Shown piece by piece: positions 1,834 through 22,812 of a stretch of 42,285 bases of DNA. The notes below the pieces were generated by a model that worked only from the letters and a program-made list of their open reading frames with translations, had not been told where the DNA came from and did no database searches. Location: contig LNEH01000183.1 in assembly GCA_001464505.1 (NCBI GenBank), positions 1 through 42,285 on the forward strand, given 5' to 3'. Numbering within the stretch: the stretch's first letter is position 1; each line of letters begins with the position of its first letter. This DNA is from Verrucomicrobia bacterium Ga0077533 (GTDB lineage: Bacteria > Verrucomicrobiota > Verrucomicrobiia > Opitutales > Opitutaceae). The position numbers and the translations under genes were made by a program.

Positions 1834-1866
1834 ACTTTAGCGGATCGTGGCGGTGCTGGCTGCGCA
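1834..1866 (-). promoter_or_regulatory. YGCGCA-N21-TAAAGT promoter for the octaheme cytochrome
   Basis: Reading the minus strand, TGCGCA (1866-1861) is followed by exactly 21 nt and then TAAAGT (1839-1834). The same layout recurs upstream of several other genes in the window. The surrounding segment (about 1857-1893) closely resembles the segment upstream of the small cytochrome at 10878. The leader to the ATG is about 60 nt. Confidence 0.55.
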
Positions 1867-1944
1867 TTGCTTGCGGAGATATATGCATGGTTTGGCGGCA
1901 AAGTGCCAGACCAAGAATAAGATGTGCTTGTGTCATCTATGAGT

Positions 1945-3258
1945 TCATGCGCCGGCTTGGATGTGGCCAACCCTGGCGACCGGCCCCCAGGTGGCCTGCT
2001 CCGTCTGGACATGATCCCGCATCGCGTCGCGGTAGGTGTTCACCGATTGGAAAAATTCCGCCATCATCAGCATGAGCCAATACCGGCCGCTTTCGGTCAG
2101 CCGCCAGCCGCGCGGATCGCGAATCGCGGCGCCCAGCACCTCCAGGGTGAACAGCTCACCCCACAGTCGCCGGAAAAACCCCGGTCCGTAGTGCTGTCGC
2201 GCCCATTCCCGGTCGAGGCCGAGGCCGAACATCCGCACCAGCAACGCATATCTCATCCGCTCGGTGTCACCGAGTTGGTGCTTGGTCACGATGCCGGTCA
2301 GGCCGCCCGCGATGCGCTGCTCGTAGGCCGCAAGGGAGAACGTGGTCGAGTAGAGCGTGCCGTCGAGGTAGCTGAAGGCGCCGCTGCCCGCCCCGACGTA
2401 GTTGTCCGCGGTGGCGATGTATTCGTCGCTGCCACCGCCGTTCCGCGTAAAGCACCAGGCGGAGGTCGGCGCAAATCCGGGCGCGAGCCGCCGGCCGATG
2501 GTCTGATAAAACTGGCGCAGCCGCCGGCGGTCGGGCACGCCCATCGCGCCGGCCATCCGGCGCAGCCCCGCGGGCGAGGTCATCAGCGGGTAGCAGGAGA
2601 CCTGGTTGGCGCCCAGCGTCTGGAAGAGGTCCAGGTCGCGCTCGAGCGAGGCCAGCGTCTGGTGCGGCAGGTTGAAGATCAGGTCGACATTCAGGGTGGG
2701 GAAGAGCCCGGCCGCGCCGCGGATGTGGTCCGCGATCTCGGCGCCGCTGCCGTATTTCTCGAAGCGGCCCATTTCGCGGAGCAGCGTGTCGTCAAAACTC
2801 TGCACGCCCACCGACAGCCGGGTCACGCCGCCGCGGCGCAACTGCGCCAGCAGCGGTGGGCGGAGATCGCGGGGATTGGTCTCGACCGAAATGTCCCGGA
2901 CCGCGAAGCGCTTCCGCACCAGGGCGATGGTCTCGAGCAGTTCCTCCGGCTCGACGGTCGGGGTGCCGCCGCCGAAGTAGACGCCCGAGAACTCGAAGCC
3001 GGCCTGGTGGTAGAGCTCGATCTCGCGGCGCAGGGCGGTGAAATAACGGTGCGCCTGCGGCCGGCAGAGCAGCACCCGGTGGAAGGAGCAGAACGGGCAC
3101 AGCGCCTCGCAGAAGGGGATATGCACATAAAGGTAGCACCCGCCGGTGCGCGGGCGGGGCGGCAAGGCCCCGTCGCACTCGGTCATGCGGAGGAAGCCGC
3201 GCGTGCGGAAGCGGAAGATCCGGATGAGCAGGGAGTCAATAAGTGTGGAGTCGAACAT
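1945..3258 (-). CDS. HemN/HemW-like radical SAM protein
   Basis: This is a 437-residue radical SAM protein of the coproporphyrinogen III oxidase superfamily. The SAM cluster motif CEALCPFC (CX3CX2C) follows YLYVHIPF near residue 50. It is followed by YFGGGTPT (SAM binding), SVETNP, GVQSF and DLIFNLP, in the family order. The region after about residue 270 resembles HemN/HemW C-terminal domains. Candidates are oxygen-independent porphyrinogen oxidation, heme chaperoning (HemW) or heme ring opening; the sequence does not decide between them. A second, canonical hemN lies at 15450, so this copy may serve the multiheme cytochromes encoded on both sides. I use the ATG at 3258; a TTG at 3282 would add only eight residues from repeat sequence. 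Confidence 0.8.
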   Translation of the reverse strand: MFDSTLIDSLLIRIFRFRTRGFLRMTECDGALPPRPRTGGCYLYVHIPFCEALCPFCSFHRVLLCRPQAHRYFTALRREIELYHQAGFEFSGVYFGGGTPTVEPEELLETIALVRKRFAVRDISVETNPRDLRPPLLAQLRRGGVTRLSVGVQSFDDTLLREMGRFEKYGSGAEIADHIRGAAGLFPTLNVDLIFNLPHQTLASLERDLDLFQTLGANQVSCYPLMTSPAGLRRMAGAMGVPDRRRLRQFYQTIGRRLAPGFAPTSAWCFTRNGGGSDEYIATADNYVGAGSGAFSYLDGTLYSTTFSLAAYEQRIAGGLTGIVTKHQLGDTERMRYALLVRMFGLGLDREWARQHYGPGFFRRLWGELFTLEVLGAAIRDPRGWRLTESGRYWLMLMMAEFFQSVNTYRDAMRDHVQTEQATWGPVARVGHIQAGA

Positions 3259-3266
3259 GGCGTTAA

Positions 3267-3386
3267 AAGCTCCAACCTCCAAACGCCAAGCTCCAATGAA
3301 ACATCAAACGATGAACCCTCGAATCTCCGCGTCCGAAGACTGGCCATTCGTGATTCATTGGAGTTGGTGGTTGTAAATTGGAGCTT
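3267..3386. repeat. Long imperfect inverted repeat between hemN-like and cbcL-like genes
   Basis: The arms at about 3267-3300 and 3354-3386 are imperfectly complementary and built on the words AAGCTCCAA, CTCCAATGAA and TTCATTGGAG, TTGGAGCTT. The element fills the 165-bp gap between two minus-strand genes and lies directly against the start of the downstream gene. It resembles degenerate intergenic repeats rather than a terminator, since no T-run follows. Confidence 0.6.
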
Positions 3387-3423
3387 CAGGCGATCCGAAG
3401 ACGCAGGGTCGGGCGAAAACGGC

Positions 3424-5548
3424 CTAGTGCCCCAGCCGGCTCAGCAGGGCGTAGATCATCAGGCCGAGCAGCAGGAGCCCGAGGCCGACGAAGATGAAGC
3501 CCAGGGTGCGGTAAAGTGTCCGGCGTTCGGCCCAGTCGCTGTGGATGACGCGGTGCTGCTCGAGCTTGCCGGAGGCGACGAGGCGGTCATGCCACCGGCG
3601 GCGCTCCGTCAGCATCTCCGCCTTCGAGATGTGGCCGGAAAAAATCACGGTATCCATGGGGAACTTGTCGAGGCGGAAGTGCGTGTTGAAGAAATGGAAG
3701 GTGAAGATGAAGCCGGCGGCGAGCAGGGCCTCGTCGGAGTGGATCACCACGGCGAGGTTGATCGTCCAGCCCGGCAGGAACGTGGTGAAAAACCGCGGGA
3801 ACCAGAGCACGAGTCCGGACAGGCCTATGATGGCCACGCCCCAGAACACGGCGGTCCCATGACGGTTTCGGGCCCCGGCCGAAGAACCATTTCAAGTGGG
3901 CGATGAAATCGTGAAAATCCTGGAAGGAGGGCACCATCGAGTCGGGGCCGAAGACCGCGGCCCAGAACCGGCCGGGCTCGAACCGCCCGGTGACGGGATT
4001 CCGCAGGCCGCCGCGCTGCCGCCACAGGCTCCGCGCCAGGCTGGAGAGGTGCAGCGCGAAGTAGAGGAAGGTGACGAGCGCGGCGAGGTGGTGCAGCAAG
4101 CGCGCCGCCTCCGGTCCGCCGAGCAGGTTGAAGAGGAGGCGCGCCCATTCGGTATAGTAGAATTTCAACGGCATGCCAGTGAGCACCAGCATGAGGAAAC
4201 TCGTGACGACCAGCATGTGGAGGAAGCGCTCGTAAGGGGTGAAGCGCCGGTAGGTCTCGGTGTCGTCGTGCAGGGCAGCGCGGGCCGCCCGGAAGCCGGC
4301 GGGATCGCGAACATACGTGAGGGCGAAGCGCAGCACCCAAAGCAGCGTATGCACGCCGAAGAAGGCGAACACGCCGACGAGCAGCGACGTCATCGCCAGG
4401 TAGGCCCAGTGCAGCGCGGGGTAGTTCACGCCGTCGGTATGATCCGCGTGCGGCTGGTATTGGGTGAAGGCGGCGTTCACGCCCTCATGGCACGCGGCGC
4501 AGGTCTGGACGATGTTGCCGGCCGAGAGCTTCGAGCCCGGGTCGGTGTGCTTCAGGATGTCGTGGTGACCGTGGCAGTCGTAGCAGGCCGCGACGGCGGG
4601 CGCGGTGTTGGCCTTGCCGAGCAGCATGGCCTTGCCGTGGTAGGTCTCGCGGTAGTTGGCGAGGCGCTCCTGGTGGCACTGGCCGCACTTCTGGTCGATG
4701 GTCTTTTTGAAATGCGCGCTGCCGGGGCGCTCGATGTCGTGCGCGGTGTGGCAGTCGGTGCAGACCGCCGTCTTCCCGCCGGCTTGGAGCGGCAGCCGGC
4801 CATGCACGCTGGCCGCGTAGGTCTTCTCGACGCCGACATGGCAGGCGCCGCAGGTCTGGGAGAGGGCGGCGCGGCTCGTGTGGGCGGCGGTGTCCTTGAT
4901 CGACTTGATGTCATGCACGCCGTGGCAGTCGTTGCAGGACGGGGACACGTTGAGCCCCATCTTGTAGAGGCCCTGGCCGTGGATGCTGTCGCGGAAATGC
5001 GCGATGCCGTCACCATTCTTCAGTCCCTGTCTGGTCTTGTCGCCCTCGTGGCAACTGGCGCAGGTGCCGAGCAGGTTGAATTTGGCGACCGGTGAGTCGG
5101 TGTGCTTGACCGGCAGCAATTCGTGGGAGTTGCCATGGCACGTCGTGCAATTGGCCGCGACGGGCTGACCCCCGGGGCGGGCCACGCCGTGGATGCTGGC
5201 GGCAAACTGCCTGGTGGCGGCCTCGTGGCATGAGGCGCATTGGGCCGGTGGCAGCTTGGAGTCGTGCGGGGTCTCCGTGAGCGTGGCGTGGCAGTCCACG
5301 CAGTTCAGGGCGGCGTGGACGGATTTCGCGAAGAGCTCGGGCCGGACCCCGATCCACACGGGTGGCAAACCCTTCTTGGGCGCTTTGAACTCCCCCTCGT
5401 GGCAGTCCATGCACTCCGAGTTGGGCACGGCCGGTTTCGCGGCGAGCCGGGCCGGCAGATCGGCGGCCTGCCCGCTCGCGAGGCCGAGGGCGGCGCAGGC
5501 CAGCAGTGCGCGGGAAAAGGCGGGCAACCGGGGGTGGGTGGCGATCAT
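3424..5548 (-). CDS. CbcL-like fusion: 11-heme cytochrome c plus di-heme cytochrome b, frameshifted
   Basis: The N-terminus has a signal peptide ending near SGQAAD. Eleven CXXCH sites follow between about residues 46 and 355. A cytochrome b (HydC/FdnI/DUF4405-like) membrane domain comes next, with helices starting at LHWAYLAMTS and histidines in FLHML, LLHHL and YFALHL. This architecture, multiheme c fused to a di-heme b domain, matches Geobacter CbcL, an inner-membrane quinol:cytochrome oxidoreductase used for low-potential extracellular acceptors. The frame breaks near 3852: GRGPKPSWDR runs into nonsense, while another frame resumes at AVFWGVAIIG and continues to 3424, carrying the remaining helices and histidines. 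About ten residues are missing at the break (relatives would have a WTYWEKFDYW-like segment). Its ATG overlaps the stop of the malic enzyme by one base. An alternative GTG lies at 5551. Confidence 0.8.
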
Positions 5549-7233
5549 CACGATGGTCCCGGCGCGTAGTCCCGGTAAACCGGCTCGAACATCCGCGTCC
5601 GGATGTCAGCCGCGATATCGGCCGGACGTGGCGTTTGCGCCAGGCCCGCCTCGTGGGCCGCGGTGGCGACGGCGGTGGCGATCCGGAGGGAGACCTCGCG
5701 GATTCTGGTCAGCGGGGGATATACGCGGCCGACCGCCAGGTCCTCGGGCTGCACGAGTTGCGCGAGCGTCCGGGCGGCGGCGAGAAACATGGCGTCCGTG
5801 ACCTCGCGCGCCCCGCTCACCAGCGCGCCGAGCCCGACGCCGGGGAAAATGTAGATGTTGTTGCCCTGGCCGGGCACATGGCGCTGCCCGTTGAATTCCA
5901 CGGGGGCAAAGGGACTGCCGCTCGCAAAAATGGCGCGGCCCGCCGACCAGGTGTAAGCCTGCTCCGCGGTGCACTCGGCCTTGGAGGTGGGGTTTGAGAG
6001 CGCGAAGATGATGGGGCGGGCGTTGAGCGCACTCATGGTCCCGACGATTTCCTGCGTGAAGGTCGCCGGGGTGCCCGACACGCCGATGAGCGCGGTGGGC
6101 TTGACCGCCTTCACCGCGTCGGCGAGCGGGACGATCATCGGGTGCTCGTGCGCGTAGGGCAGCTTGTGCTCGGCGAGGCGGTCGCCGCGGTTCTTCACCA
6201 CGAGCCCCTTGGAGTCGACGAACCAGCAGCGCGCGCGCGCCTCGGCTTTGCCCAGGCCCTCGGCCCGCGCGGCCTCGACATACAGATCGGCGATGCCCGT
6301 GCCCGCTTCCCCCGCGCCCAGGAAGAGGAATTTCTGCTGCGCGAGGGTGGACCGGGTGAGCCGCAGCGCCGCGATCACGCCCGCGAGCGCGACCGCGGCC
6401 GTGCCCTGGATGTCGTCGTTGAAGCTGGGCAGGTGATGCCGGTATTGGCGCAGCAGGCGGAAGGCGTTCGTGTTGCCGAAATCCTCCCACTGGAGGAGCG
6501 CGTGCGGGAAGACGTCCTTCACCGCGAGCACGAACTCCGCGATAAACCCGTCGTAGGCGGCGCCCCGCGCGCGATTCTCCTTGAGGCCGATGTAAGCGGG
6601 ACCGGCGTGGAGCGAGGCATTGTCGGTGCCCACGTCGAGGGTGATCGGCAAAGTGTAGCCGGGATGCACGCCCGCGCAGGCGGTGTAGAGCGAGAGCTTG
6701 CCGACGGGTATGCCCATGCCGAGCGCGCCGAGATCGCCGAGCCCGAGGATGCGTTCGCCATCGGTCACGACGATGAGCCGCACGCCGGGCTGGGGCCAGT
6801 GGCGGAGGATTCCGGCGATGCGACCGCGCTCCCGGAGGCTGATGAACATGCCGCGCGGCCGGCGGTAGATGGACCCGTATTGCAGGCATGCTTCCCCGAC
6901 CGTCGGAGTGTAGATCAGCGGCACCACCTCCTCAATGTGGTCGAGCACGAGCCGGTAGAAGAGGATTTCGTTCCGGTTCTGGAGATTGGTCAGGTAAATG
7001 TATTTCTCGATGTTGCTCGGTTTGCTGCGGAGGGCCGTGAGCGATCGCTGCAACTGCTCCTCCAGCGTGAACACCCGCGGCGGCAGCAGCCCGCGCAGGC
7101 CGAGCCGGTCGCGTTCGCGGTCGGTGAACGCGGTGCCCTTGTTATGCAGCGGGTCGGCGAGCAGCTGCGGCCCATGCACCGGATGCGTCTCGCCCCACGC
7201 GGACAGGCCGGGCAGGGGCGGGGGAGAATTCAT
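5548..7233 (-). CDS. maeA: NAD-dependent malic enzyme
   Basis: This is a 561-residue malic enzyme of the long MaeA/SfcA type, which decarboxylates malate to pyruvate with reduction of NAD. Visible signatures in order are IYLTNLQNRNEILFYRL, IYTPTVGEAC, the malic signature around SFNDDIQGTAAV, the Rossmann loop GAGEAGTGIADL, and ALSNPTSKAECT. The length is normal for the family. The stop codon overlaps the start of the CbcL-like gene as TGATG, which suggests translational coupling of a reductant-producing enzyme to a quinol-oxidising cytochrome. A promoter of the shared YGCGCA type ends only 5 nt before the ATG, so the mRNA is probably leaderless. Confidence 0.95.
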   Translation of the reverse strand: MNSPPPLPGLSAWGETHPVHGPQLLADPLHNKGTAFTDRERDRLGLRGLLPPRVFTLEEQLQRSLTALRSKPSNIEKYIYLTNLQNRNEILFYRLVLDHIEEVVPLIYTPTVGEACLQYGSIYRRPRGMFISLRERGRIAGILRHWPQPGVRLIVVTDGERILGLGDLGALGMGIPVGKLSLYTACAGVHPGYTLPITLDVGTDNASLHAGPAYIGLKENRARGAAYDGFIAEFVLAVKDVFPHALLQWEDFGNTNAFRLLRQYRHHLPSFNDDIQGTAAVALAGVIAALRLTRSTLAQQKFLFLGAGEAGTGIADLYVEAARAEGLGKAEARARCWFVDSKGLVVKNRGDRLAEHKLPYAHEHPMIVPLADAVKAVKPTALIGVSGTPATFTQEIVGTMSALNARPIIFALSNPTSKAECTAEQAYTWSAGRAIFASGSPFAPVEFNGQRHVPGQGNNIYIFPGVGLGALVSGAREVTDAMFLAAARTLAQLVQPEDLAVGRVYPPLTRIREVSLRIATAVATAAHEAGLAQTPRPADIAADIRTRMFEPVYRDYAPGPS

Positions 7234-7238
7234 GCCGC

Positions 7239-7271
7239 AGTTTACCGCAAGGGCGCGTGGCCGCCTGCTCA
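7239..7271 (-). promoter_or_regulatory. TGAGCA-N21-TAAACT promoter for maeA, leaderless
   Basis: On the minus strand TGAGCA (7271-7266) is separated by 21 nt from TAAACT (7244-7239). The ATG begins 5 nt after the -10 box, leaving no room for a ribosome binding site, so translation would start at or near the mRNA 5' end. An A-rich stretch (AAAAACTG) precedes the upstream hexamer, as it does upstream of the gene at 22770. Confidence 0.6.
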
Positions 7272-7344
7272 GTTTTTGCGGTTTACTGCGCCAATTTTAT
7301 TCCCGCCGGGTCCGCCAATCCCCGGAGCCGGCTCCGGGGGATCT

Positions 7345-8616
7345 TCATACGGTCCGTCTGATTCCCGGCAGCGGTCGGCAATCGTGCCCGGTGTAAACCT
7401 GCTGGGGCCGGGCGATTTTCTGGTCGGGATCGTTGAGCATCTCCTCCCATTGCGTGATCCAGCCGATCGTGCGCGGGATCGCGAAGAGCACCGGGAACAG
7501 ATCGACCGGAAAATCCAGGGCCTGGTAGATGATGCCCGAATAGAAATCGACGTTGGGATAGAGCTTGTGCGAGATGAAGTAATCGTCCGCCAGCGCGATC
7601 CGCTCGAGCTCCAGCGCGATGTCGAGCAGCGGGTTGCGGCCGGTGACCTCGAACACCTGGTCGGCGATCCGCTTGATGATCTTGGCCCGCGGATCGTAGT
7701 TCTTGTAGATGCGATGGCCGAAGCCCATCAGCCGGACTTCCTTGGCCTTCACCCGCTTGATGTAGTCGGCGACCTTGTCCTTCGAGCCGATTTCCCGGAG
7801 CATGCGGAGGACCTGCTCGTTGGCGCCGCCGTGCAGCGGTCCGTAGAGCGCGGCGGCCGCCGCCGCCGTGGCCACGTAGGGATCGGTTTGCGAACTGCCC
7901 ACGCTGCGCATGTCGTTGGCGCTGCAATTCTGCTCGTGGTCGGCGTGCAGCACGCGATACTTCACCTCGGTGCGCCGGAACATCATGTTGAGGAAATTGC
8001 CCGTGTAGCTGAGCTCGTCATCCGGGTAAACATAGGGCAACCCCATCCCGTGACGGTAGGCGTAGGCGGCGATCGTCGGCATCTTGCCCATGAGCCGGCA
8101 AATCTGCAGCCGGCGCAACACGGGATCCGAGAGCTTTTTCGCGTCCGGATAGAACGTCGACAACGCGGCCACGGTGCTGACGAGCATGCCCATCGGGTGC
8201 GCATCGTGGTGGAAACCCTCCATGAGTTTCTTCGTGTTTTCGTGGAGGAGCGCGTGGCGCATGATCTGGCGCTGCCAGTCCGCCAGTTGCGCCGGCGTGG
8301 GCAACTCGCCGTGCAGAATCAGGTAGGCCGTTTCAAGATACGAGCAGCGTTCGGCCAGCTCCTCGATCGGATAGCCCCGGTAGCGCAGGATTCCGCGGTC
8401 GCCATCGATGAACGTGATCGCGCTCTTGCAGCCCGCCGTGTTGGTGAATCCCGGATCGTAGGTCATCAGTCCGAAATCGTCCTCCCCGACTTTGATTTGC
8501 CGCAGCGCGAGGGCGTTGATCGCGGCGCCGTATTTGGGGTAGGTGCCGGCGATGATGGGCACGACATACTCCGTGCCCGTCCGATTATCGGTAATGCTCA
8601 GTGTGTTCTTGTCCAT
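7345..8616 (-). CDS. gltA: Citrate synthase
   Basis: This is a 423-residue type II (hexameric-like) citrate synthase, which condenses oxaloacetate and acetyl-CoA in the TCA cycle. Motifs seen are DGDRGILRYRGYPIEELA, the catalytic His segments LHGGANEQ and MGFGHRIYK, and the catalytic Asp in PNVDFYSG, with HADHEQNCS between. The ATG at 8616 gives the standard N-terminus; the frame is open to 8697 without family likeness. It stands between malic enzyme and an ImcH-like cytochrome, so central carbon oxidation and electron disposal are interleaved here. The upstream region holds a YGCGCA-type promoter and, further up, a perfect 27-bp dyad. Confidence 0.96.
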   Translation of the reverse strand: MDKNTLSITDNRTGTEYVVPIIAGTYPKYGAAINALALRQIKVGEDDFGLMTYDPGFTNTAGCKSAITFIDGDRGILRYRGYPIEELAERCSYLETAYLILHGELPTPAQLADWQRQIMRHALLHENTKKLMEGFHHDAHPMGMLVSTVAALSTFYPDAKKLSDPVLRRLQICRLMGKMPTIAAYAYRHGMGLPYVYPDDELSYTGNFLNMMFRRTEVKYRVLHADHEQNCSANDMRSVGSSQTDPYVATAAAAAALYGPLHGGANEQVLRMLREIGSKDKVADYIKRVKAKEVRLMGFGHRIYKNYDPRAKIIKRIADQVFEVTGRNPLLDIALELERIALADDYFISHKLYPNVDFYSGIIYQALDFPVDLFPVLFAIPRTIGWITQWEEMLNDPDQKIARPQQVYTGHDCRPLPGIRRTV

Positions 8617-8728
8617 GGGTTGGTTCCTCTCGTCGTTTGCTGTTATCGCCCGCGAACGGGCATGGCGCCTCCCTGCGTCGGGCCGACCGGCCGCCATCTG
8701 GACACAAAGCGCTCATCACAGTGGCTGT

Positions 8729-8761
8729 AACATGCGCCAAAACCGGCGGCGGCGCTACGCA
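8729..8761 (-). promoter_or_regulatory. TGCGTA-N21-CATGTT promoter for gltA
   Basis: On the minus strand TGCGTA (8761-8756), a 21-nt spacer and CATGTT (8734-8729) match the shared architecture with one mismatch in the upstream hexamer. It predicts a leader of roughly 105 nt ahead of the citrate synthase ATG. Confidence 0.45.
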
Positions 8762-8827
8762 GCCGTTGACCGGTTGCGCGCAATTATTGTCGGCGGGTGT
8801 GCGGCCTTGGGGGCGCTTAGCTGCGCA

Positions 8828-8854
8828 TTGATGTCAACTAATAGTTGACATCAA
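8828..8854. promoter_or_regulatory. Perfect 12-bp dyad, probable operator upstream of gltA
   Basis: Two perfect 12-nt arms, TTGATGTCAACT at 8828-8839 and its complement at 8843-8854, flank the trinucleotide AAT. Each arm also contains a smaller palindrome of the form TTGA-N2-TCAA, giving two nested sites. There is no GC-rich stem or T-run, so a terminator is unlikely. Position about 70 bp above the predicted gltA promoter fits a dimeric regulator site. The regulator cannot be named; the spacing does not match an FNR box. Confidence 0.5.
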
Positions 8855-8917
8855 CGGCGCCAGGTTGCGGTCAAAAACGCCCGCATTGAGGTGGGCACGA
8901 TCCCCGGCGGGGTCGTG

Positions 8918-10426: not shown

Positions 10427-10435
10427 GGGATGGGT

Positions 10436-10506
10436 TGTAGCGGCGGTCTATGACCGCCGGGCGAACGTCCTTTGATTTTCGACGGCGGTCATAGACCGCC
10501 GCTACA
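10436..10506. repeat. REP/BIME-like inverted repeat, GTAGCGGCGGTC type
   Basis: Perfectly complementary 24-nt arms at 10436-10459 and 10483-10506 begin TGTAGCGGCGG and end CCGCCGCTACA. Each arm is itself an imperfect hairpin (GGCGGTC...GACCGCC). The element fills the gap between the small cytochrome gene and the ImcH-like gene and may attenuate or stabilise their joint transcript. Confidence 0.75.
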
Positions 10507-10539: not shown

Positions 10540-10878
10540 TCAGGTCTTGAACTTGCGGATGTGGGCGATGAGTTCCTTGATCTCGTCGGCGGAGAGTTCG
10601 TCCTTGTAGCCTTTCATCGTCTCCTTGCCGGCCGAGTCGCGGACGCCGTCGGCGGTGGCCTTGATCATGTCCTCATCCTTCAATTCGGCCTGCACCTTGG
10701 CGTCGGTGTAGTCCTTCAGCTTGAGTTTTTTGCCGACCTTGGTCTGGCCCTTGCCGTCGGCCCCGTGGCACTTGGCGCAGTGGTTGTCCCAGTTTTCAGC
10801 GACCGGGGCGGCGCTGCACAAGGCCGCGCCCGCGAGGAAAACAAGGCCGCTGGTGAGAAGTTTGGTGCGATTTTTCAT
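10540..10878 (-). CDS. Small monoheme cytochrome c
   Basis: This is a 112-residue class I cytochrome c. A signal peptide runs to about residue 23 (GAALCSA), followed by heme site CAKCH near residue 34, then GADGKG and a distal Met within ETMKGYKDEL, ending in a typical LIAHIRKF helix. It is a soluble periplasmic electron carrier. It lies first in the minus-strand run that continues with the ImcH-like quinol dehydrogenase, so it could be that enzyme's direct electron acceptor. The promoter faces that of the divergent lipoprotein-ccsBA pair. Confidence 0.88.
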   Translation of the reverse strand: MKNRTKLLTSGLVFLAGAALCSAAPVAENWDNHCAKCHGADGKGQTKVGKKLKLKDYTDAKVQAELKDEDMIKATADGVRDSAGKETMKGYKDELSADEIKELIAHIRKFKT

Positions 10879-10954: not shown

Positions 10955-10987
10955 AATATGGCAGCGTTCGGCCGCGTTGGCTGCGCA
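10955..10987 (-). promoter_or_regulatory. TGCGCA-N21-CATATT promoter for the small cytochrome
   Basis: On the minus strand TGCGCA (10987-10982), a 21-nt spacer and CATATT (10960-10955) lie about 77 nt before the ATG at 10878. The downstream plus-strand words CTTGC, GAGAT and GGTTTG repeat those at 1857-1893 upstream of the octaheme cytochrome, suggesting co-regulation. Confidence 0.6.
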
Positions 10988-11034
10988 TCACTTGCCGAGA
11001 TTCGCGCAAGGTTTGCTTATAGCCTCGCAAGATA

Positions 11035-11067
11035 CGCGCAGCCAACGGAGGCGCATTCGGGCATGCT
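11035..11067 (+). promoter_or_regulatory. CGCGCA-N21-CATGCT promoter for the lipoprotein-ccsBA pair
   Basis: CGCGCA (11035-11040), 21 nt and CATGCT (11062-11067) point rightward, divergent from the element at 10955-10987. An ATG at 11079 lies 11 nt after the -10 box, but the lipoprotein signal starts at 11154. Either the leader is about 80 nt or the protein has an unusual 25-residue N-terminal extension. Confidence 0.5.
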
Positions 11068-15293: not shown

Positions 15294-15404
15294 ATCACAG
15301 CCTCATGTCCCCCGGTTCAAACTGACTCCCTGAGTGTTCCCCCGGCCATTAAGTTGTAAACTGAACCCTGGGCCGGCAAGATCTGCGCGGTCTTGGGCAA
15401 AGCA

Positions 15405-15437
15405 GGCGCAGCCGGTTTGGCGGTGTCCTGCCATACT
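15405..15437 (+). promoter_or_regulatory. GGCGCA-N21-CATACT promoter for hemN
   Basis: GGCGCA (15405-15410) and CATACT (15432-15437) are separated by 21 nt. The ATG at 15450 is 12 nt beyond the -10 box, which allows only a leader of a few nucleotides. No FNR-type TTGAT-N4-ATCAA box is present although hemN is often oxygen-regulated. Confidence 0.6.
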
Positions 15438-15449
15438 GGGATTCCACGC

Positions 15450-16877
15450 ATGATCCGCCCCGAAGATACCCAGCTGCAATGCTCCCCGGCCCTTGATCTG
15501 GACCTGATCCGGAAATACTCGGTGCCGGGCCCGCGCTACACTTCCTACCCGCCGGCCACCAAGTTCTCGGCCGAGCTCCCGGCGCTCCGGCTGGAAAAGG
15601 CCATCCTGGACGACAATCGGGCCGGCACCGCGGGTGGTGAGCCGGGTCGAACCAGTCCGCTGTCGCTTTATTTCCATCTGCCGTTCTGCGAGAGCCGCTG
15701 CTGGTTCTGCGGCTGCAACACGGTCATCACCAAGCGCCTCGCCTCGGCGGGCGAATACCTCGACGACCTCGCCCGCGAGATGAGCCTGACGGCGGCCCGC
15801 CTGGACCGCCGCCGGCCCGTCACCCAGATCCACCTCGGCGGCGGCACCCCGACATTTTTCCCGCCCGGCGAACTGCGGCGGCTCGGCGCCATCATCAACG
15901 AGTTCTTCCATGTCGCCCCCGATTGTGAGTTCAGCGTCGAAATCGACCCCCGCCGGTTGACCCCCGCCCATGTGATCGCCCTGCGGGACATCGGGGCCAA
16001 CCGCGCCTCCTTGGGCGTGCAGGACACCAATCCGAGCGTGCAGCTCGCGATCCACCGCTACCAGCCGCAGGCGCTGAACGTGGCCGCTTTCGCGTGGCTG
16101 CGTGCCGCCGGATTCGAGTCGATCAATGTCGACCTCATCTACGGCCTGCCGTTGCAGACCCCGGATTCCTTTGCCGCGACCATCCGCGACGTGCTCACCC
16201 TCGGTCCCGACCGGCTCTCCGTCTTCAGCTACGCGCATGTGCCGTGGATCAAGCCGGCGCAGAAAATCTTCGACGACCGCCTCCAACTGCCCGGACCCGA
16301 GGCGAAGCTGGCGATGTTCGCCGTCGCCCACGAGCTGCTGACGGCGGCGGGTTATGTGGACATCGGGCTCGACCACTTTGCCAAGCCGGATGACGAACTG
16401 GCGGTGGCGCTGCGCACCGGCACGCTGCACCGGAATTTCCAAGGCTACAGCACGCACGGCGGAGCCTCGCTTTACTCCTTCGGCATCTCGGCAATCTCGT
16501 CCACCCCCGACACTTACCGGCAGAACCACAAGACCCTGGCGGAATGGCGTGCCGCCCTCGACGCGGGCCGGCTGCCGGTCGAGCGCGGCCTGCGGCTCTC
16601 GGTGGAGGACACCCGGCGGCGCACCATCATCATGCGCCTGATGTGCGACCGCCGGTTGGATTTCCCCGCGCTGTCCGCGCGCCTCGGCCTTGATTTTTCG
16701 TCGGTCTACGCCGCGGAGCTGGCCTCGCTGGCCGACCTGGAGGCCGACGGACTTTTGCACCGGACCGCCACCGGGATCGAGGTCACGCGCACCGGCGTGC
16801 CGCTCCTCCGGGTGATCGCGATGCGGTTCGACCCGACGGTCACCACCGCGGCACTCCAGCACTCCCGCACCATCTGA
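15450..16877 (+). CDS. hemN: Oxygen-independent coproporphyrinogen III oxidase
   Basis: This is a 475-residue radical SAM enzyme that converts coproporphyrinogen III to protoporphyrinogen IX without oxygen. Family signatures run in order: VPGPRYTSYPPATKFS, the cluster motif CESRCWFCGC (CX3CX2CXC), HLGGGTPTF, EIDPR, GVQD, INVDLIYGLP and FAKPDDELA, with the NFQGYSTH segment near residue 335. Full length is present. The start at 15450 is set by the family N-terminus and by a promoter ending 12 nt upstream. It serves heme supply at low oxygen for the c-type cytochromes and the cbb3 oxidase. Confidence 0.95.
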   Translation: MIRPEDTQLQCSPALDLDLIRKYSVPGPRYTSYPPATKFSAELPALRLEKAILDDNRAGTAGGEPGRTSPLSLYFHLPFCESRCWFCGCNTVITKRLASAGEYLDDLAREMSLTAARLDRRRPVTQIHLGGGTPTFFPPGELRRLGAIINEFFHVAPDCEFSVEIDPRRLTPAHVIALRDIGANRASLGVQDTNPSVQLAIHRYQPQALNVAAFAWLRAAGFESINVDLIYGLPLQTPDSFAATIRDVLTLGPDRLSVFSYAHVPWIKPAQKIFDDRLQLPGPEAKLAMFAVAHELLTAAGYVDIGLDHFAKPDDELAVALRTGTLHRNFQGYSTHGGASLYSFGISAISSTPDTYRQNHKTLAEWRAALDAGRLPVERGLRLSVEDTRRRTIIMRLMCDRRLDFPALSARLGLDFSSVYAAELASLADLEADGLLHRTATGIEVTRTGVPLLRVIAMRFDPTVTTAALQHSRTI

Positions 16878-16972
16878 CACGGCTGCCGGACAAGAGTTGC
16901 GCGGATAAAGCCAACAAACGCCGAGCTGTTGCCCGGATGACGGCGCATAGTGGGCCCGGTCCCTGTTGCCCC

Positions 16973-17926
16973 ATGAATCTCGCCACCCGGTATCTCGGGT
17001 TGCCGCTCCGCAGCCCCTTTGTTGTCGGCGCTTCGCCCCTTTGCGATGACGCGCCCTTGGCGCGGCAGCTGCAGGACGCCGGGGCGGGGGCGGTCGTCAT
17101 GCGCTCCCTGTTCGAGGAACAACTGGAGCCGCCGGCGGCGGCGAGCGGAAACCTGGGGCTGGGTTTTCCGGAATACGCCGACTACCAGTTTTCGCCCGAC
17201 CACTATCTCAGGCAACTGGACCTGCTGAAGGAGCAATTGACGATTCCGGTGATCGCCTCGCTGAACGGCCACCAACCCGGCGCCTGGACCGAATTTGCGG
17301 TGTGCCTGGAACGCGCAGGGGCCGATGCCATCGAGCTTAACTTCTACCAGGTCGTCACCAACCCGGCCATCGCGGCGGACCAGGTGGAGACCGAAATGTT
17401 GCGGACCGTGGCCGAAATCGCCGACGCGGTGCACATCCCCGTGGCGGTCAAGCTCTCGCCCTTCCATTCGTCGGTCGCCCAGCTCGCCGTCGCGCTTGAG
17501 CTGGCGGGTGCGGCGGGGATCGTGGTTTTCAACCGTTTTTTTCAGCCTGATGTGGACCCCGACACGCTCGAGGCCCGGCCGGTGCTGCACCTGTCCGAAC
17601 CCAGCGAGCTGTTGCTGCGGCTGCGTTGGCTCGCCATCCTGTCCCCGCAGGTGCGGGGCTCGCTCGCCGTGAGCGGCGGCGTGCACTCGGCGGCGGATGC
17701 GGCCAAGGCCCTGCTTACCGGCGCCCACGCCGTGCAGGTGGTTTCGGTGGTGTTGCGGCATGGACCGCCGGTGCTGCAGACGCTGCTCCGGGGCCTGGAA
17801 ATCTGGATGCGGGAGCAGGGCTTCGCCGACCTGGCAGATTTTCGCGGCCGGCTGAACCTGGCGCGCTGCCGCGATTCGTCCGCCTTCGAGCGCGCCAACT
17901 ACATCCGCACGCTGCAGAGCATGTAG
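16973..17926 (+). CDS. Dihydroorotate dehydrogenase-like flavoprotein
   Basis: This is a 317-residue TIM-barrel FMN protein of the PyrD-like class. It opens MNLATRYLGLPLRSPFVVGASPL, then has IPVIASLNGH, the core AIELNFYQV, a Lys-containing strand IPVAVKLSPF, FNRFFQPD, and a C-terminal phosphate-binding region AVSGGVHSAADAAKAL...AHAVQVVS. Members of this group often lack dihydroorotate specificity and occur next to redox genes, so the substrate is uncertain. The ATG at 16973 matches the family start; a weak -10-like CATAGT sits at 16946. It converges with the universal stress gene. Confidence 0.85.
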   Translation: MNLATRYLGLPLRSPFVVGASPLCDDAPLARQLQDAGAGAVVMRSLFEEQLEPPAAASGNLGLGFPEYADYQFSPDHYLRQLDLLKEQLTIPVIASLNGHQPGAWTEFAVCLERAGADAIELNFYQVVTNPAIAADQVETEMLRTVAEIADAVHIPVAVKLSPFHSSVAQLAVALELAGAAGIVVFNRFFQPDVDPDTLEARPVLHLSEPSELLLRLRWLAILSPQVRGSLAVSGGVHSAADAAKALLTGAHAVQVVSVVLRHGPPVLQTLLRGLEIWMREQGFADLADFRGRLNLARCRDSSAFERANYIRTLQSM

Positions 17927-17933
17927 CCCCGGG

Positions 17934-17957
17934 CCGGGTGGGTGTTCCGCGACCCGG
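17934..17957. terminator. Weak hairpin between convergent genes
   Basis: CCGGGT (17934-17939) and ACCCGG (17952-17957) form a six-pair stem in the 41-bp gap between the plus-strand flavoprotein and the minus-strand stress protein. There is no T-run, so intrinsic termination is only a guess. Confidence 0.25.
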
Positions 17958-17967
17958 TGGCGCGGCC

Positions 17968-18423
17968 TTATCTGCGGGTGGGTTGGGCGATGGGCACCAG
18001 CACGAGCGGGCACGGGGGCTTGCGGATTATCCCGTGGGTCGTGCTGCCGATGATCAGGTCGTAGGCGGCGGTATGCCCATGCGATCCGATCACGAGGTAG
18101 TCGGGCCGGACGGTGGCGGCCGTGCGCAGAATGACGCTGACCGGATCACCCTCATGCATCACCACCTTGGTCGCGGGGCCGCGTTTGTTGAACCACCGGC
18201 CGAGCGCCTCCATCCGGTGGGCGGCGCGCTTGCGGGCCTCGCTGGTGAGACCGATCACCTGGCTCGCGTCGAAGGCGTAGTATTCGCTCATCACCATCGG
18301 GGGAGGCGGCACGACATGCAGGATGACCAGCCGGCCACCGACCGCCTTGGCCAGTTCGGCCGCCACATTGCAGACGCGAACGGTCGCGCCCGAGAGATCA
18401 ACCGGAACCAGGATCTTTTTCAT
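17968..18423 (-). CDS. Universal stress protein, UspA family
   Basis: This is a 151-residue single Usp domain. It starts MKKILVPVDLSGATVRVC (the first strand and nucleotide-contact Asp) and carries the ATP-binding pattern VIGSHGHTAAYDLIIGSTTHGIIRK (G-2X-G-9X-G-S/T type) near the C-terminus, ending PLVLVPI. The ATP-binding subclass is therefore likely. A shared-type promoter ends 8 nt before its ATG, implying a leaderless mRNA. It is divergent from nirK. Confidence 0.92.
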   Translation of the reverse strand: MKKILVPVDLSGATVRVCNVAAELAKAVGGRLVILHVVPPPPMVMSEYYAFDASQVIGLTSEARKRAAHRMEALGRWFNKRGPATKVVMHEGDPVSVILRTAATVRPDYLVIGSHGHTAAYDLIIGSTTHGIIRKPPCPLVLVPIAQPTRR

Positions 18424-18431
18424 GGTGCCCC

Positions 18432-18463
18432 AATATAGCCGATCCCGACGCGGTGCCTGCGCA
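18432..18463 (-). promoter_or_regulatory. TGCGCA-N20-TATATT promoter for the stress protein, leaderless
   Basis: On the minus strand TGCGCA (18463-18458) is followed by 20 nt and TATATT (18437-18432). Only 8 nt separate the -10 box from the ATG at 18423, so a Shine-Dalgarno leader cannot fit. Confidence 0.6.
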
Positions 18464-18508
18464 TCGATTGGCGCAGACTCGGCTAATCTTGCTGCGGGTC
18501 AGTAACGC

Positions 18509-18541
18509 CGCGCGGCTGTCCGTCCGGCGGGGCAATATATG
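18509..18541 (+). promoter_or_regulatory. Possible CGCGCG-N21-TATATG promoter for nirK
   Basis: CGCGCG (18509-18514), 21 nt and TATATG (18536-18541) match the shared layout with one mismatch per box, about 60 nt before the nirK ATG. The word GGCAATATAYGC occurs here and again just before the ATG (18589 onward). I see no NNR/FNR-type dyad. Confidence 0.35.
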
Positions 18542-18600
18542 CCCAGCCTTGGGCAAACGGTGCCTTGCTTGCAGGGCGGGTTATTGGCAATATACGCGCC

Positions 18601-20130
18601 ATGAATACTCCACGCAATATTCTCCCCGTGTTTGTGCTGGCCACTCTCGTGCTGGTCGCCGCTTTGCTCACGACCACCGTGATCAAGGCCGCGGAAGGTC
18701 CGGCCGACGCCAAGGGCCCGGTCGTCCTCCCGCTTGATGTGCTCAACCTGCCCGTCGAGCAGGCCATCCTCACCGCGCCGCCGCGGGTGCCGCCACCGAT
18801 CAACCGCAAGTATCCGGCGCGCGTCGTCGTCAACCTCGAGGTGCGCGAGGTCGTGGGCCGGCTCGCCGACGGCGTCGAATACACCTTCTGGACCTATGGC
18901 GGCAGCGTGCCCGGCTCGTTCATCCGCATCCGCGAGGGCGACGTGGTGGAGTTCCACCTCAACAACCACCCGTCCTCGAAGCTCCCCCACAACATCGACC
19001 TGCACGCCGTCACCGGCCCCGGCGGCGGCGCGACCTCGACGTTCACGGCGCCAGGCCACAGCTCGCAGTTCACTTTCCAGGCGTTGAACCCCGGCCTCTA
19101 CGTTTACCACTGCGCCACCGCGCCCGTGCCGATGCACGTCGGCAACGGCATGTATGGCCTCATCCTGGTCGAACCCAAGGGCGGGATGCCCAAGGTGGAC
19201 AAGGAATACTACGTCATGCAGGGCGAGTTCTACACCACCGGCAAATACGGCGAGGAAGGCCTGCAATCCTTCGACATGGCCAAGGCCATCGACGAACGCC
19301 CGCCCTACATCGTGTTCAATGGCTCTGTCGGTTCCCTGGTCGGGGACAAGGCCATCACCGCCAATGTCGGTGAGCACGTCCGTCTCTATTTTGGGGTCGG
19401 CGGGCCGAACGTGACCTCCTCCTTCCACGTCATCGGTGAAATCTTTGACAAGGTCTGGCCCGAAGGCGGCACAAAATGGATCCAGGAAAACGTGCAGACC
19501 ACGCTCGTGCCCTCCGGCGGCGCGACGCTCGTCGAGTTCAAGGTCGATGTGCCCGGCACCTTCATCCTCGTGGACCACTCGCTCACCCGGGCGTTCAACA
19601 AGGGCGCGCTCGGCATGCTCAAGGTCGCCGGCGCGGAGAACCGCGTCATCTACTCCGGCAAGGAGATTGACGCCATCTATCTCGGCGCGCAGGCCGAGGC
19701 GGGCTCCGAATCCGCGAAGCGCGAGGCCGAGCTGCAGGAGCTGTTCACCATCGAGCTCAAGACCAATCCCCGGATCGCCGGGCTCACGAAGGAAATCCGG
19801 GCGGAGAAAGGCAAGCAGGTTTACATGGGCCTCTGCGTCTCCTGCCATCAGGTCGATGGCAAGGGCCTGCCCGCCGTCTTCCCCCCGTTGGCCGCCTCGG
19901 ACTACATGCTGGCCGACCGCGATCGCGCCATCCGCACCATCCTCCAGGGTCTCAGCGGTCCCATCACGGTCAACGGGGTGGCCTTCAACAGCGTCATGCC
20001 GCCGCTGGAGGCGGTGCTGACCGACACGCAGATCGCGGATGTGCTGACCTACGTCTTCAACGCCTGGGGCAACCAGGGCGACGCGTTCACCACGGACCAG
20101 GTGAAGGCCATCCGCACTCAGATCCACTGA
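18601..20130 (+). CDS. nirK: Copper nitrite reductase with C-terminal cytochrome c domain
   Basis: This is a 509-residue exported enzyme reducing nitrite to nitric oxide in denitrification. After an N-terminal signal segment, two cupredoxin domains carry a full ligand set: His130 and His135 ([10 protein letters not shown]), His170-Cys171 ([13 protein letters not shown]), His179 and Met184, then [11 protein letters not shown] and [11 protein letters not shown] in domain two. That covers type 1 and type 2 copper. A fused class I cytochrome c follows, with C412-V-S-C-H416 and a likely Met ligand in [12 protein letters not shown]. The fusion lets electrons arrive from a periplasmic cytochrome directly. 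Downstream genes for a SUMF1-fold protein and a Sco chaperone follow closely, forming an operon. No NO reductase is visible in the window. Confidence 0.96.
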
Positions 20131-20150
20131 GCGAATCTGGCGCCGACATC

Positions 20151-21008
20151 ATGCCCGCCGCCACTTCAGGGCCGCCTGAGGTCCCCGCCGTTTGTAACGT
20201 ATTACGTTACAAATGGGCCGGGGGGGTGTGCGCGCTGCTGCTGGGCGTGATGACGGCGGGCGGGGCAGTAAAAAATCAAAAACCCGAAACCGATGATGCC
20301 GCCATGCGGCTCATCCCGGCGGGCATCTACGTGCCGCTGCAGCGCACGACCAAGGAAGCGGCGGAGGTGGCGGTCGGCTCGTTTCTGCTCGACGAACGGC
20401 CGGTCACCAATGCGGAGTTTCTGGCGTTCGTGACGGACCATCCGCATTGGCGCCGCTCGCAGGTGAGCGGGCTTTTTGCCGACTCCTCCTACCTGGAGCA
20501 CTGGGCCGGCGACCTCGCACTGGGGCCGCAGGCGCCGCCGGCCGCGCCCGTCGTCCGCGTTTCGTGGTTTGCGGCCCGCGCCTACGCCCGCTGGGCCGGC
20601 CGGCGCCTGCCGACCACCGCCGAGTGGGAACTGGCGGCCGCCGCCGGTTACTCGCGGCCCGACGGCCGGAACGATCCCGAGCAGAAGCGCGACCTCTATG
20701 CCTGGCTCGCGCGTCCGGTGCCCGCGGTGCATACGGCGGCCGCCGCCGCCCGACCCGACTTCCACGGCGTGCGGGGCCTGCACGGCCTCGTCTGGGAGTG
20801 GGTCGATGATTTCAACACCGCCATGGTCACCGGTGAATCGCGGGGCGATGCCGGACTCGAACGCGACCTCTTCTGCGGGGCCGGCTCGGTCGGGGCCAAG
20901 GATCCGTCGGACTACGCCGCCTTCATGCGCGCCGCGCTGCGCTCCTCCCTCAAGGCCAACAACACCACGACCTCCCTCGGCTTCCGCTGCGCCAAAAACC
21001 TCCCATGA
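20151..21008 (+). CDS. SUMF1/formylglycine-generating-enzyme-fold protein
   Basis: This is a 285-residue protein. After a membrane or signal segment at about residues 21-40 comes a SUMF1 (FGE-sulfatase) domain: MRLIPAGIYVPL, DERPVTNAEFLAFV, PVVRVSWFAARAYARWAGRRLPT, TAEWELAAAAG, GLVWEWVDDF and the ending TTSLGFRCAKN. The catalytic Cys pair of true FGE is not evident. Such proteins often lie in nirK or nosZ operons, and a role in nitrite reductase maturation is inferred from position only. The next gene overlaps its stop by ATGA. A 23-bp palindrome is embedded in its N-terminal coding part. Confidence 0.85.
   Translation: MPAATSGPPEVPAVCNVLRYKWAGGVCALLLGVMTAGGAVKNQKPETDDAAMRLIPAGIYVPLQRTTKEAAEVAVGSFLLDERPVTNAEFLAFVTDHPHWRRSQVSGLFADSSYLEHWAGDLALGPQAPPAAPVVRVSWFAARAYARWAGRRLPTTAEWELAAAAGYSRPDGRNDPEQKRDLYAWLARPVPAVHTAAAAARPDFHGVRGLHGLVWEWVDDFNTAMVTGESRGDAGLERDLFCGAGSVGAKDPSDYAAFMRAALRSSLKANNTTTSLGFRCAKNLP
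20191..20213. repeat. 23-bp palindrome inside the SUMF1 gene, copy 1
   Basis: The arm TTTGTAACGTA is followed by a single T and its exact reverse complement. It is read through in frame as FVTYYVTN-like alternatives in other genes and here encodes VCNVLRYK, just before the hydrophobic export segment. The same sequence occurs at 34958 and a compensated variant at 35092, both inside ccoI. Confidence 0.9.
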
Positions 21009-21607
21009 AAACCTTCCTGTCCACCGTCGCCGGCCTTTGTCTAGCGAGTTGTCTCTTTGCCGCCGAATCGGCGAAAAAACCCGACGCCTGCTGCGCGGCG
21101 ATGGCCGCCACGCCATTCACCCGGAATTCACTTTACCAACTCGGGGCGACATTCACCGATGACACGGATCACTCAGTCGCGCTCGCCTCGTTGCGCGGCC
21201 GGCCCGTCGTGCTCAACATGTTTTTCGCCTCGTGCGGCTACGCTTGCCCGCTGACTGTCACCGACCTGCTCGCCATCCAGGACCGGTTGCCGGCCGAACT
21301 GCGCGCCCAGACCGTCTTTGTCCTTGTCTCCTTTGATGTCGCCCGGGACACCACCGAAGTGCTGGCGAAGTATCGCACGCAGCGCGGGCTCGACGGCCAG
21401 TGGGTGCTGCTCCGCGGGGATGACGACTCCGTGCGCGAACTGGCGGCCCTCGTCGGGGTGAAATACAAGCAGGAGACCGACGGCATGTTTGCCCACTCGA
21501 ACCTCGTCACCATCCTCAATCGCGAGGGCGAGATCGTTCACCAGCGTCAGGGGCTGAAGGGCGGTCTCGACGAGGCCGCCACCGCACTCGTTGCGATAGG
21601 CCGTTGA
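21005..21607 (+). CDS. Sco1/SenC-type copper chaperone
   Basis: This is a 200-residue thioredoxin-fold protein with an N-terminal export signal; LASC near residue 16 could be a lipobox. The copper-binding CX3CP motif (FFASCGYACPLT) and the distal His in FAHSN are present, as in Sco proteins that deliver copper or reduce metal-site thiols. It starts inside the stop of the SUMF1 gene (ATGA). Being in the nirK operon suggests it loads the nitrite reductase copper sites, although it could also serve the cbb3 oxidase encoded 6 kb away. Confidence 0.9.
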   Translation: MKTFLSTVAGLCLASCLFAAESAKKPDACCAAMAATPFTRNSLYQLGATFTDDTDHSVALASLRGRPVVLNMFFASCGYACPLTVTDLLAIQDRLPAELRAQTVFVLVSFDVARDTTEVLAKYRTQRGLDGQWVLLRGDDDSVRELAALVGVKYKQETDGMFAHSNLVTILNREGEIVHQRQGLKGGLDEAATALVAIGR

Positions 21608-21688
21608 AATTTCGCGCCTGCCAATAAGCGGGATCATCCACGCCACGCTGAACGCCGGGAGGGAGTCAGCATGCAGTCCGCCCGTGTG

Positions 21689-22285
21689 TCAGGGGAAAAT
21701 CCTCTGCGCCGTCCAGCCGCCCTTTGTCCGGGTGAAGCGGACGCGTTCATGCAGGCGGAAAGGTTTTTCGTGCCAGAACTCGATGTGTTCCGGGACGACG
21801 CGGTAGCCGGACCAGTGGGGCGGGCGGGGCACGGCGCCGAGGCCGTAGCGCAGCGCGACCGCCGCGCAGTTGCGTTCCAATTCGAATTGGTCGGCCATCG
21901 GGCGCGATTGGTGCGACGCCCAGGCGCCGATCTGGCTGAGCCGCGGCCGCGTGGCAAAATAGGCATCAGCGTCGTCGTCGCTCACGCGTTCCACCCGGCC
22001 GGAGACGCGGACCTGACGCTTGAGCGAATTCCAATAAAAGCAAAGTGCGGCCCGGGGATTGACCGAGAGATCGGCGGCCTTCGGGCTGGCGAGGTTGGTG
22101 TAGAAGACAAAACCGTGCTCATCAACGCCCTTGAGGAGCAACATGCGCACCTGGGGCGCCCCGTCGGCGCCGGCCGTCGCCACGGCCATGGCGGTCGGTT
22201 CGGGCGCGCCGATTTTCACCGCCTCGCCGAGCCACACCACAAACTGGGCGATCGGATCCTGGGAGACGGAAGGGATGGAACTCAT
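21689..22285 (-). CDS. pdxH: Pyridoxamine 5'-phosphate oxidase
   Basis: This is a 198-residue FMN enzyme that oxidises pyridoxamine or pyridoxine phosphate to pyridoxal phosphate. Signatures seen are [50 protein letters not shown], the [15 protein letters not shown] segment, and the C-terminal family block [17 protein letters not shown] and RLHERVRF, ending QRIFP. The length is a little below the usual 210-220 but the domain is complete. Its ATG overlaps the stop of the upstream gene by four bases (ATGA). Confidence 0.95.
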
Positions 22286-22770
22286 GCCCCGGTCGACATG
22301 CGGGACTGGCTTGGTCGCTTCTGGGCGGTGGCCAGCTTGGGTGTATGACGCTTGCGCCGTGGCTTGGCGGGTTGCTTGCTGATGGCGCCCCACGCCTGGA
22401 TTTCGCGCTGGGTCAGGTTGTTGATCACCTGCTTGAGGCTGCCAAACGAGGTGTCGCGGGTCGCCGGATCCAGTGAGTCCATCTCGGCCTGCACCAGGAC
22501 GAGGCTTTCCAGCAGAGCTTGCTCGCCGGCGCGGAAGTAGGCCCGCCACGGGCTGGGCCCATCGGACCGGGCCGAACCCACGTCGGGTTTGTGGGGCAGG
22601 GGTTGGCCCAAGGCGGCGAAGATCTCGTCGAGGGATTGATCCAGGGCGAACACCAGCGTGTCGGGGTTCGCCAGCGGGGTGGTCACCTTCTCGATGCGGA
22701 GCAGGGCTTCCCAGCGCCCGCGGATCTGCGCCCGGCGCCCCTGCAGCGCCTTGATGATTTTCTCATACAT
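22282..22770 (-). CDS. Hypothetical helical protein upstream of pdxH
   Basis: This 162-residue protein has no recognised family. It starts [20 protein letters not shown] and appears all-alpha, rich in Leu, Ala and Glu to residue 125, then has a strongly basic Lys/Arg/Gln tail ([13 protein letters not shown]) that could bind nucleic acid. It overlaps pdxH by ATGA and therefore shares its transcript. The ATG at 22770 lies only 9 nt from a predicted -10 box. A regulatory or stress role is possible, but nothing in the sequence proves it. Confidence 0.75.
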
Positions 22771-22779
22771 GTCGGGCCC

Positions 22780-22812
22780 AGTATGCCTCCGCCGGGCCCG
22801 GTCGGCTGCGCA
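22780..22812 (-). promoter_or_regulatory. TGCGCA-N21-CATACT promoter, nearly leaderless
   Basis: On the minus strand TGCGCA (22812-22807), 21 nt and CATACT (22785-22780) lie 9 nt before the ATG at 22770. The upstream hexamer is preceded by AAAAAC, as in the maeA promoter. It drives the helical protein and pdxH. Confidence 0.65.

Follow-up and report, generated by a model that had tools for sequence, protein, structure and literature searches.

Among described bacterial regulators, FNR recognizes TTGAT-N4-ATCAA dyads, LytTR proteins recognize 21-bp direct repeats, and the repeats of the XylS-dependent Pm promoter recur with a period of 21 bp. XylS, of the AraC/XylS family, has two direct repeats at Pm, each composed of a box A and a box B, according to the part of PMC5481539 available, and the title of a work cited in that part speaks of overlapping activator and polymerase sites at XylS/Pm. 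The accessible portion of PMC3798270 describes ArcA of Escherichia coli as having direct-repeat sites in helical phase, with redox and carbon-oxidation genes as targets. Like both systems, the promoter element described here is built of direct repeats, and like ArcA sites it stands before redox and carbon-oxidation genes; it was found in a DNA stretch of 42,285 nucleotides (hereafter the window; contig LNEH01000183.1, C183, of assembly GCA_001464505.1). Two boxes noticed there earlier, a YGCGCA hexamer and a YATRYT -10 box, are half of a longer control element, namely a tandem site beside a weak promoter.

According to the preliminary description, the two boxes precede at least eight genes, and all eight places quoted do hold them, with departures in single bases: the hexamer reads TGAGCA at maeA, TGCGTA at gltA and GGCGCA at hemN, and the -10 box of the octahaem cytochrome gene is TAAAGT. 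The spacing, given as 21 nt with one exception, was 21 nt in seven sites and 20 nt at the stress gene. A wider approach than the literal pattern was needed because three sites have a changed hexamer base and one has another -10 box (YGCGCA-N19-23-YAWRYT finds only four of the eight). Inspection by eye revealed CAA four bases ahead of the hexamer in each of these sites, and the full element consists of CAA-N4-YGCGNA, a second copy, CAA-N4-YGCGNAG, exactly 21 bp downstream, 20 nt, and the -10 box. The site is thus an asymmetric two-box unit (CAA, YGCGNA) present as two direct repeats at exactly 21 bp, and two-fold symmetry within a unit is limited to GCA...TGC.

Two converse searches uncovered the same architecture in other genomes. 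The half-motif CAA-N4-TGCGCAG-N20-YANRNT, which covers the proximal unit and the -10 box, matched 119 times in the family (63 of the 120 genomes examined), vs five times in the reversed control; in 50 genomes with named citrate synthase matches, mostly of other phyla, it was at background (six matches vs four controls). After near-copies were set aside, 109 matches were carried forward, 88 distinct contexts had flanks, and five judged intragenic by eye were omitted, leaving 83. Among these, CAA, which was not part of the search, stood exactly 21 bp upstream in 56, vs 0-3 at each of the remaining offsets between -24 and -9; G at -13 (76 contexts) and T at -4 (47) were likewise unsearched. In the opposite direction, a search of 200 genomes for the distal unit and the -10 box only yielded 90 matches, 89 of them distinct, against 21 in the reversed control, and CAA lay exactly 21 bp downstream in 62 of the 89, with at most five at any other offset. 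The proximal unit of those 62 carried Y in 55, G in 59, C in 54, G in 47, A in 47 and the final G in all 62. This final G, also not searched for, is the third base of the -35 slot 17 nt before the -10 box, and the corresponding position of the distal unit is G in only 27 of the 62. The earlier remark that the hexamer sits higher than a -35 box therefore holds, since in the normal slot only the third base, G, is kept. The palindromic core CTGCGCAG, by comparison, was not borne out as an organizing feature: in sites selected without it, the fifth hexamer base is C 22 times and G 25 times out of 62, with G at the second and C at the third base held in 59 and 54, and the palindrome is incidental. 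The -10 consensus is YAKRMT, 17 nt past the -35 slot; if transcription starts 7 nt after it, the unit is centred near -42, and on this assumed start the proximal repeat overlaps the -35 slot, ending at the G at -33.

A two-part matrix was trained on 80 sites from other genomes, with the window and the syntenic contig C33 of genome G261 excluded, and the pattern that collected these sites had been suggested by the window. It identified 11 sites in the window with scores of 26-42, where about 0.04 above 16 are expected in random sequence of the same dinucleotide make-up, and none in the reversed window; three further matches, at 9.0-13.8, fall in the range of chance. The nirK site, listed before as a likely ninth, is among the 11. 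All 11 lie outside predicted coding sequence (86% of the window), each has a predicted start within 112 nt (gene predictions are from a rough caller, with approximate starts), and the distance to the -10 box is constant within 1 nt across them. In total, the matrix gave 35 matches above 16 over 542 kb: 11 in the window, 18 in C33 (100 kb) and one and five in two 200-kb runs of a complete relative, G205, of which the second (155 genes) was picked to include a cytochrome cluster and the first holds 157 predicted genes. None of the 35 was inside predicted coding sequence, which makes up 83-88%, none was found in reversed sequence, and 30 had a predicted start within 150 nt. The window and C33 are homologous, so their counts are not independent. 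All 18 sites of C33 lie within its first 55 kb, the remaining 45 kb containing no site that scores above 16, and orthologs of 10 of the 11 window targets carry a site in C33 (the first cytochrome, maeA, cytochrome c, lipoprotein-ccsBA, hemN, dihydroorotate dehydrogenase-like, universal stress protein (Usp), nirK, 22770 and 26894 genes).

Across 230 genomes of the phylum, the two-unit pattern with one mismatch allowed had 76 matches in 13 of 20 known family genomes and none in the remaining seven, and 23 in 20 further genomes, close to the reversed control (21 over all 230). The motif family is probably Opitutaceae. Two of the seven motif-free genomes, G197 and G222, were dropped from comparisons, having one half-motif match each: that of G197, which precedes a gene carrying a site in two other genomes, is probably real, and that of G222 was judged intragenic. 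The motif-free set relied on was G124, G186, G191, G313 and G329; G124 has two distal-unit matches, both without a second CAA. A NapC-type cytochrome (E 1e-40) was found in 10 of the 13 motif-bearing and none of the seven motif-free genomes, and is not tied to the motif because it also occurs in 11 phylum genomes outside these 20.

The genes behind the element in other genomes resemble those in the window. By short sequence tags, the downstream protein has CXXCH within its first 60 residues in 17 of the 88 contexts, and the downstream proteins include six PFOR-like, four CoA-transferase-like and three protoporphyrinogen oxidase-like ones, together with four that we take to be DUF2892-like and four that are presumably methylmalonyl-CoA epimerase-like. 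Pfam analysis of 24 downstream proteins of other genomes and four window genes assigned a family to 22 of the 28, including multihaem cytochromes, PFOR, acetyl-CoA hydrolase, GTP-PEPCK, pyridoxamine phosphate oxidase and OmpW, as well as DksA/TraR zinc finger, MarR, PAS domains, DUF2339, DUF2934, TonB Plug and Tll0287-like families. No Pfam family was found for the proteins of loci L202, L206, L219, L239 and L245 or for the 22770 gene of the window.

The boxes are likely the visible half of an activator-dependent promoter of the class II type, with a dedicated regulator on the tandem units. Such a regulator would bind the two head-to-tail CAA-N4-YGCGNA copies, which lie two helical turns apart; at the end of the downstream copy would lie a degenerate -35 element that retains nothing but its central G (-33), followed at 17 nt by a -10 box of the CATACT/TAGACT type, and the bound regulator would stand in for the missing -35 element and recruit ordinary sigma-70 RNA polymerase. 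It would be a single protein that activates rather than represses, and its signal may be oxygen, redox or electron-acceptor state. The tandem two-box layout over the polymerase site suggests, as a first guess, that the regulator may be of the AraC/XylS type. On the sequence evidence, the element is predicted to be a regulon mark and not a general promoter, and it probably marks the targets of one activator, as the alternative offered in the preliminary description had it; the sparse sites, their recurrence in the family, their placement outside predicted coding sequence, the outcome of the two converse searches and the recurring kinds of target all support this.

Several observations weigh against this interpretation. 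No exact half-motif match was found in 57 of the 120 sampled family genomes; the 27 of 89 distal-unit matches that lack a second CAA roughly equal the reversed control in number and are thus background; and for five of the 35 matrix matches no start is predicted within 150 nt, the sole match in the unselected 200-kb run of G205 among them. In addition, a redox role is not evident for some targets (pyridoxamine phosphate oxidase, the TonB-type Plug protein), and a site over the -35 slot could equally repress. Furthermore, the presence tests for CRP/FNR, LytTR and OmpR proteins identified no regulator gene, and in the loci around the sites an E. coli MarA probe matched nothing at E 1e-3, which says little; the AraC family itself was not searched.

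An OmpR/PhoB-type response regulator, which would read the element as four head-to-tail half-sites at 11, 10 and 11 bp in the manner of ArcA or PhoB, is doubtful. YSGSCAA and YGCGNAG do align partly at an 11-bp shift, the physiological role of ArcA is alike, and the part of PMC3798270 available gives ArcA sites two to five direct repeats, usually at 11-bp intervals; the best-conserved base, the G after Y, however, is without a clear counterpart in the other half-site. OmpR-type regulators number 4-15 per genome in ten motif-bearing genomes and 1-8 in the five motif-free ones, but no ortholog group (at least 55% identity, E 1e-8 sets) was present in all four motif-bearing genomes compared (G261, G246, G166, G266) and in no motif-free one (G329, G191, G313), some of these genomes being incomplete. 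The nearest OmpR candidate failed the presence test: its orthologs (74-78%) occur in two motif-free genomes, G124 and G186, the motif-bearing genomes G275, G228, G166 and G375 lack any match at E 1e-45, and the matches in G287, G205, G249, G181 and G442 reach just 39-45%. LytTR proteins were likewise set aside, being present in 12 of the 13 motif-bearing genomes with none (E 1e-6) in G246.

That the element is instead a repressor site is unlikely: it does overlap the -35 slot, but that slot is degenerate except for one G, so that the promoters would be weak without help, and the near-constant distance to the -10 box in the window also argues against it. A CRP/FNR-type regulator, which would read each CAA-N4-YGC as a short dyad (GCA-N5-TGC), with centres near -42 and -63, is very unlikely, even though -42 is the class II position and hemN, Usp, cytochromes and PFOR are FNR-like targets. 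The only such gene of the nearest genome, G261, is DNR/FNR-like and lies on the regulon contig (C33:51923-52126, L289:11923-12126), and in G181 a contig bearing three two-unit matches also carries such a gene. The recognition helix of the G261 protein has E-S-R, presumably as in FNR. On the other hand, the units are asymmetric, motif-free G124 does have a CRP/FNR gene, the window offers too little space for the gene of C33 (354 nt vs 1,729 there), and the CRP/FNR helix-turn-helix (E 1e-6) was not found in four of the 13 motif-bearing genomes (G246, G266, G151, G228); a divergent CRP below this cut-off is possible, and the only match of G228, a weak one, looks by eye like a MarR protein. By eye, the DNR/FNR-like gene of G181 (L362) adjoins a RIC/YtfE-like gene. 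Finally, a general promoter of the lineage, whose housekeeping sigma factor simply reads the boxes as -35 and -10, is scarcely credible despite the ordinary-looking sigma-70 -10 box and the many short leaders, given that the conserved region extends far upstream as a 21-bp tandem repeat and that only one match above threshold occurs in the unselected run of G205, with none in the last 45 kb of C33, which also leaves the earlier idea of a main promoter grammar unsupported.

The same description called these promoters often leaderless. This stands insofar as the ATG lies 5-9 nt past the -10 box in 4 of the 11 sites (two more are at 11 and 12 nt), and the corresponding distances in C33 equal those of the window within 1 nt. 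Short leaders are not special to these promoters, however, because Shine-Dalgarno-like sequences are not enriched before predicted starts generally in this group (loci L287-L291 and L368-L387): such tetramers at predicted starts and in a control stretch numbered 4 vs 3 of 72, 14 vs 10 of 130 and 7 vs 12 of 142, with rough gene starts. The available part of PMC10783764 gives some other Verrucomicrobia as Shine-Dalgarno-scarce. In 188 genes whose upstream space is free, nine -10-like hexamers ended 6-10 nt ahead of the ATG, vs 1-7 in other 5-nt bins upstream, a slight excess at most.

The origin of the contig bears on where the element can be sought. The assembly holding the window comprises 2.925 Mb in 226 contigs, and judging from sequence comparison the window appears to be a Verrucomicrobiota contig misbinned into the assembly of another lineage. 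This was decided by its NapC-type multihaem cytochrome, 90% identical to one in G261, and by its alignment with C33 (38.5 kb in 17 blocks, of which two are secondary and the main ones run collinear; identity 84%). The genome-wide scan envisaged earlier would mislead in the window's own assembly, where TGCGCA-N21-YATRYT has four matches, two of them in the window, because the contig appears foreign there. Compared with the citrate synthases found in 52 of 56 relatives, that of the window reaches no more than 53% identity, and a second, family-like copy is present in the assembly. The window enzyme was rejected as a weak lineage guide, gltA being absent from C33 and the named matches among those listed spanning many phyla; together with its site (window 7345-8730), gltA is missing between the flanking genes in the collinear C33. 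By tetranucleotide distance, the window is 0.150 from the assembly mean, 0.084 from the relative's contig and 0.191 from G205, and the assembly's own contigs above 9 kb have a median distance of 0.097 to the mean and a largest of 0.337 (12 of 60 contigs, with masked stretches, were left out); composition alone is no proof of misbinning.

The sites of the window are listed in the table. For nirK, the relative's protein aligns from 18601, in agreement with the start given. Near the 26815 site, Pfam families comprised DUF2934 (26894-27091), COX1 and FixO (27970-29763) and FixP_N (30070-30660). At 10955-11067, the distal units of the two divergent promoters of the small cytochrome c and lipoprotein-ccsBA genes overlap, and the occupied stretch may serve both genes. 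Four window genes, encoding the multihaem cytochrome, ccsBA, ccoN and a fixI-like ATPase, are split over two frames (near 3851, 14587, 27827 and 34461) vs single frames in C33, which suggests sequencing errors or decay.

Table. Tandem sites with their -10 boxes in the window, with matrix scores and corresponding positions in contig C33
Gene	Site	Position	Strand	Score	Remarks
Multihaem cytochrome gene (993-1772)	tandem site, -10 TAAAGT	1834..1894	-	42.0	intergenic, 61 nt to predicted start; Pfam Paired_CXXCH_1
maeA (5548-7233)	tandem site, distal CAA degenerate (TAA), -10 TAAACT	7239..7299	-	30.5	ATG 5 nt past -10; malic enzyme Pfam; kept at C33:21216
gltA (7345-8697)	tandem site, -10 CATGTT	8729..8789	-	27.2	citrate synthase Pfam
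Small cytochrome c gene (10540-10878)	tandem site, -10 CATATT	10955..11015	-	39.8	Cytochrom_C Pfam; kept at C33:23291
Lipoprotein gene ahead of ccsBA (ATG 11079, ORF to 12263)	tandem site, -10 CATGCT	11007..11067	+	39.2	ATG 11 nt past -10; kept at C33:23346
hemN (15450-16877)	tandem site, -10 CATACT	15377..15437	+	41.6	ATG 12 nt past -10; Radical_SAM, HemN_C Pfam; kept at C33:27666
Dihydroorotate dehydrogenase-like gene (16973-17926)	tandem site, -10 CATAGT, new	16891..16951	+	26.8	DHO_dh Pfam; kept at C33:29158
Universal stress protein gene (17968-18423)	tandem site, -10 TATATT, gap one base shorter	18432..18491	-	33.4	ATG 8 nt past -10; Usp Pfam; kept at C33:30719
nirK (ATG 18601)	tandem site, -10 CAATAT	18533..18593	+	26.2	ATG 7 nt past -10; Cu-oxidase, Cytochrom_C Pfam; kept at C33:33668
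Gene 22282-22770 (162 aa)	tandem site, -10 CATACT	22780..22840	-	41.5	no Pfam family; ATG 9 nt past -10; kept at C33:48753
Small DUF2934 gene (26894-27091), ahead of cbb3-type oxidase genes	tandem site, -10 TAGGAT, new	26815..26875	+	28.6	kept at C33:54860

Possibly, though at somewhat less than an even chance, the anaerobic and respiratory genes of Opitutaceae are under a global activator from outside the FNR/CRP, LytTR and ArcA-like OmpR groups, one that recognizes a tandem 21-bp element not described in the literature searched. Listings of that literature, on regulation in Verrucomicrobia, Opitutaceae and Opitutus and on leaderless starts, showed nothing on this element and no described respiration or anaerobic-metabolism regulon for Verrucomicrobiota. 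The sharp motif provides a ready list of target genes and a DNA bait for the regulator, and it would allow the respiration and denitrification genes of uncultured Opitutaceae to be grouped by sequence alone; it would also be a clean case of an activator replacing the -35 element. Compared with the known systems, the element shares with FNR, ANR and DNR the class II position and targets such as hemN, Usp, cbb3 genes, nirK and PFOR, but has tandem asymmetric units where theirs are dyads, and CRP/FNR genes were not found in 4 of the 13 motif-bearing genomes. Unlike ArcA sites, in which repeat number and spacing vary, it keeps the unit and the -10 spacing constant. It differs from XylS/Pm in its boxes (TGCA and GGTA there, CAA and YGCGNA here) and in serving a scattered regulon of several operons instead of one pathway operon. 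If the proposed activator is real, it would represent an independent solution to the job done by FNR and Arc in proteobacteria.

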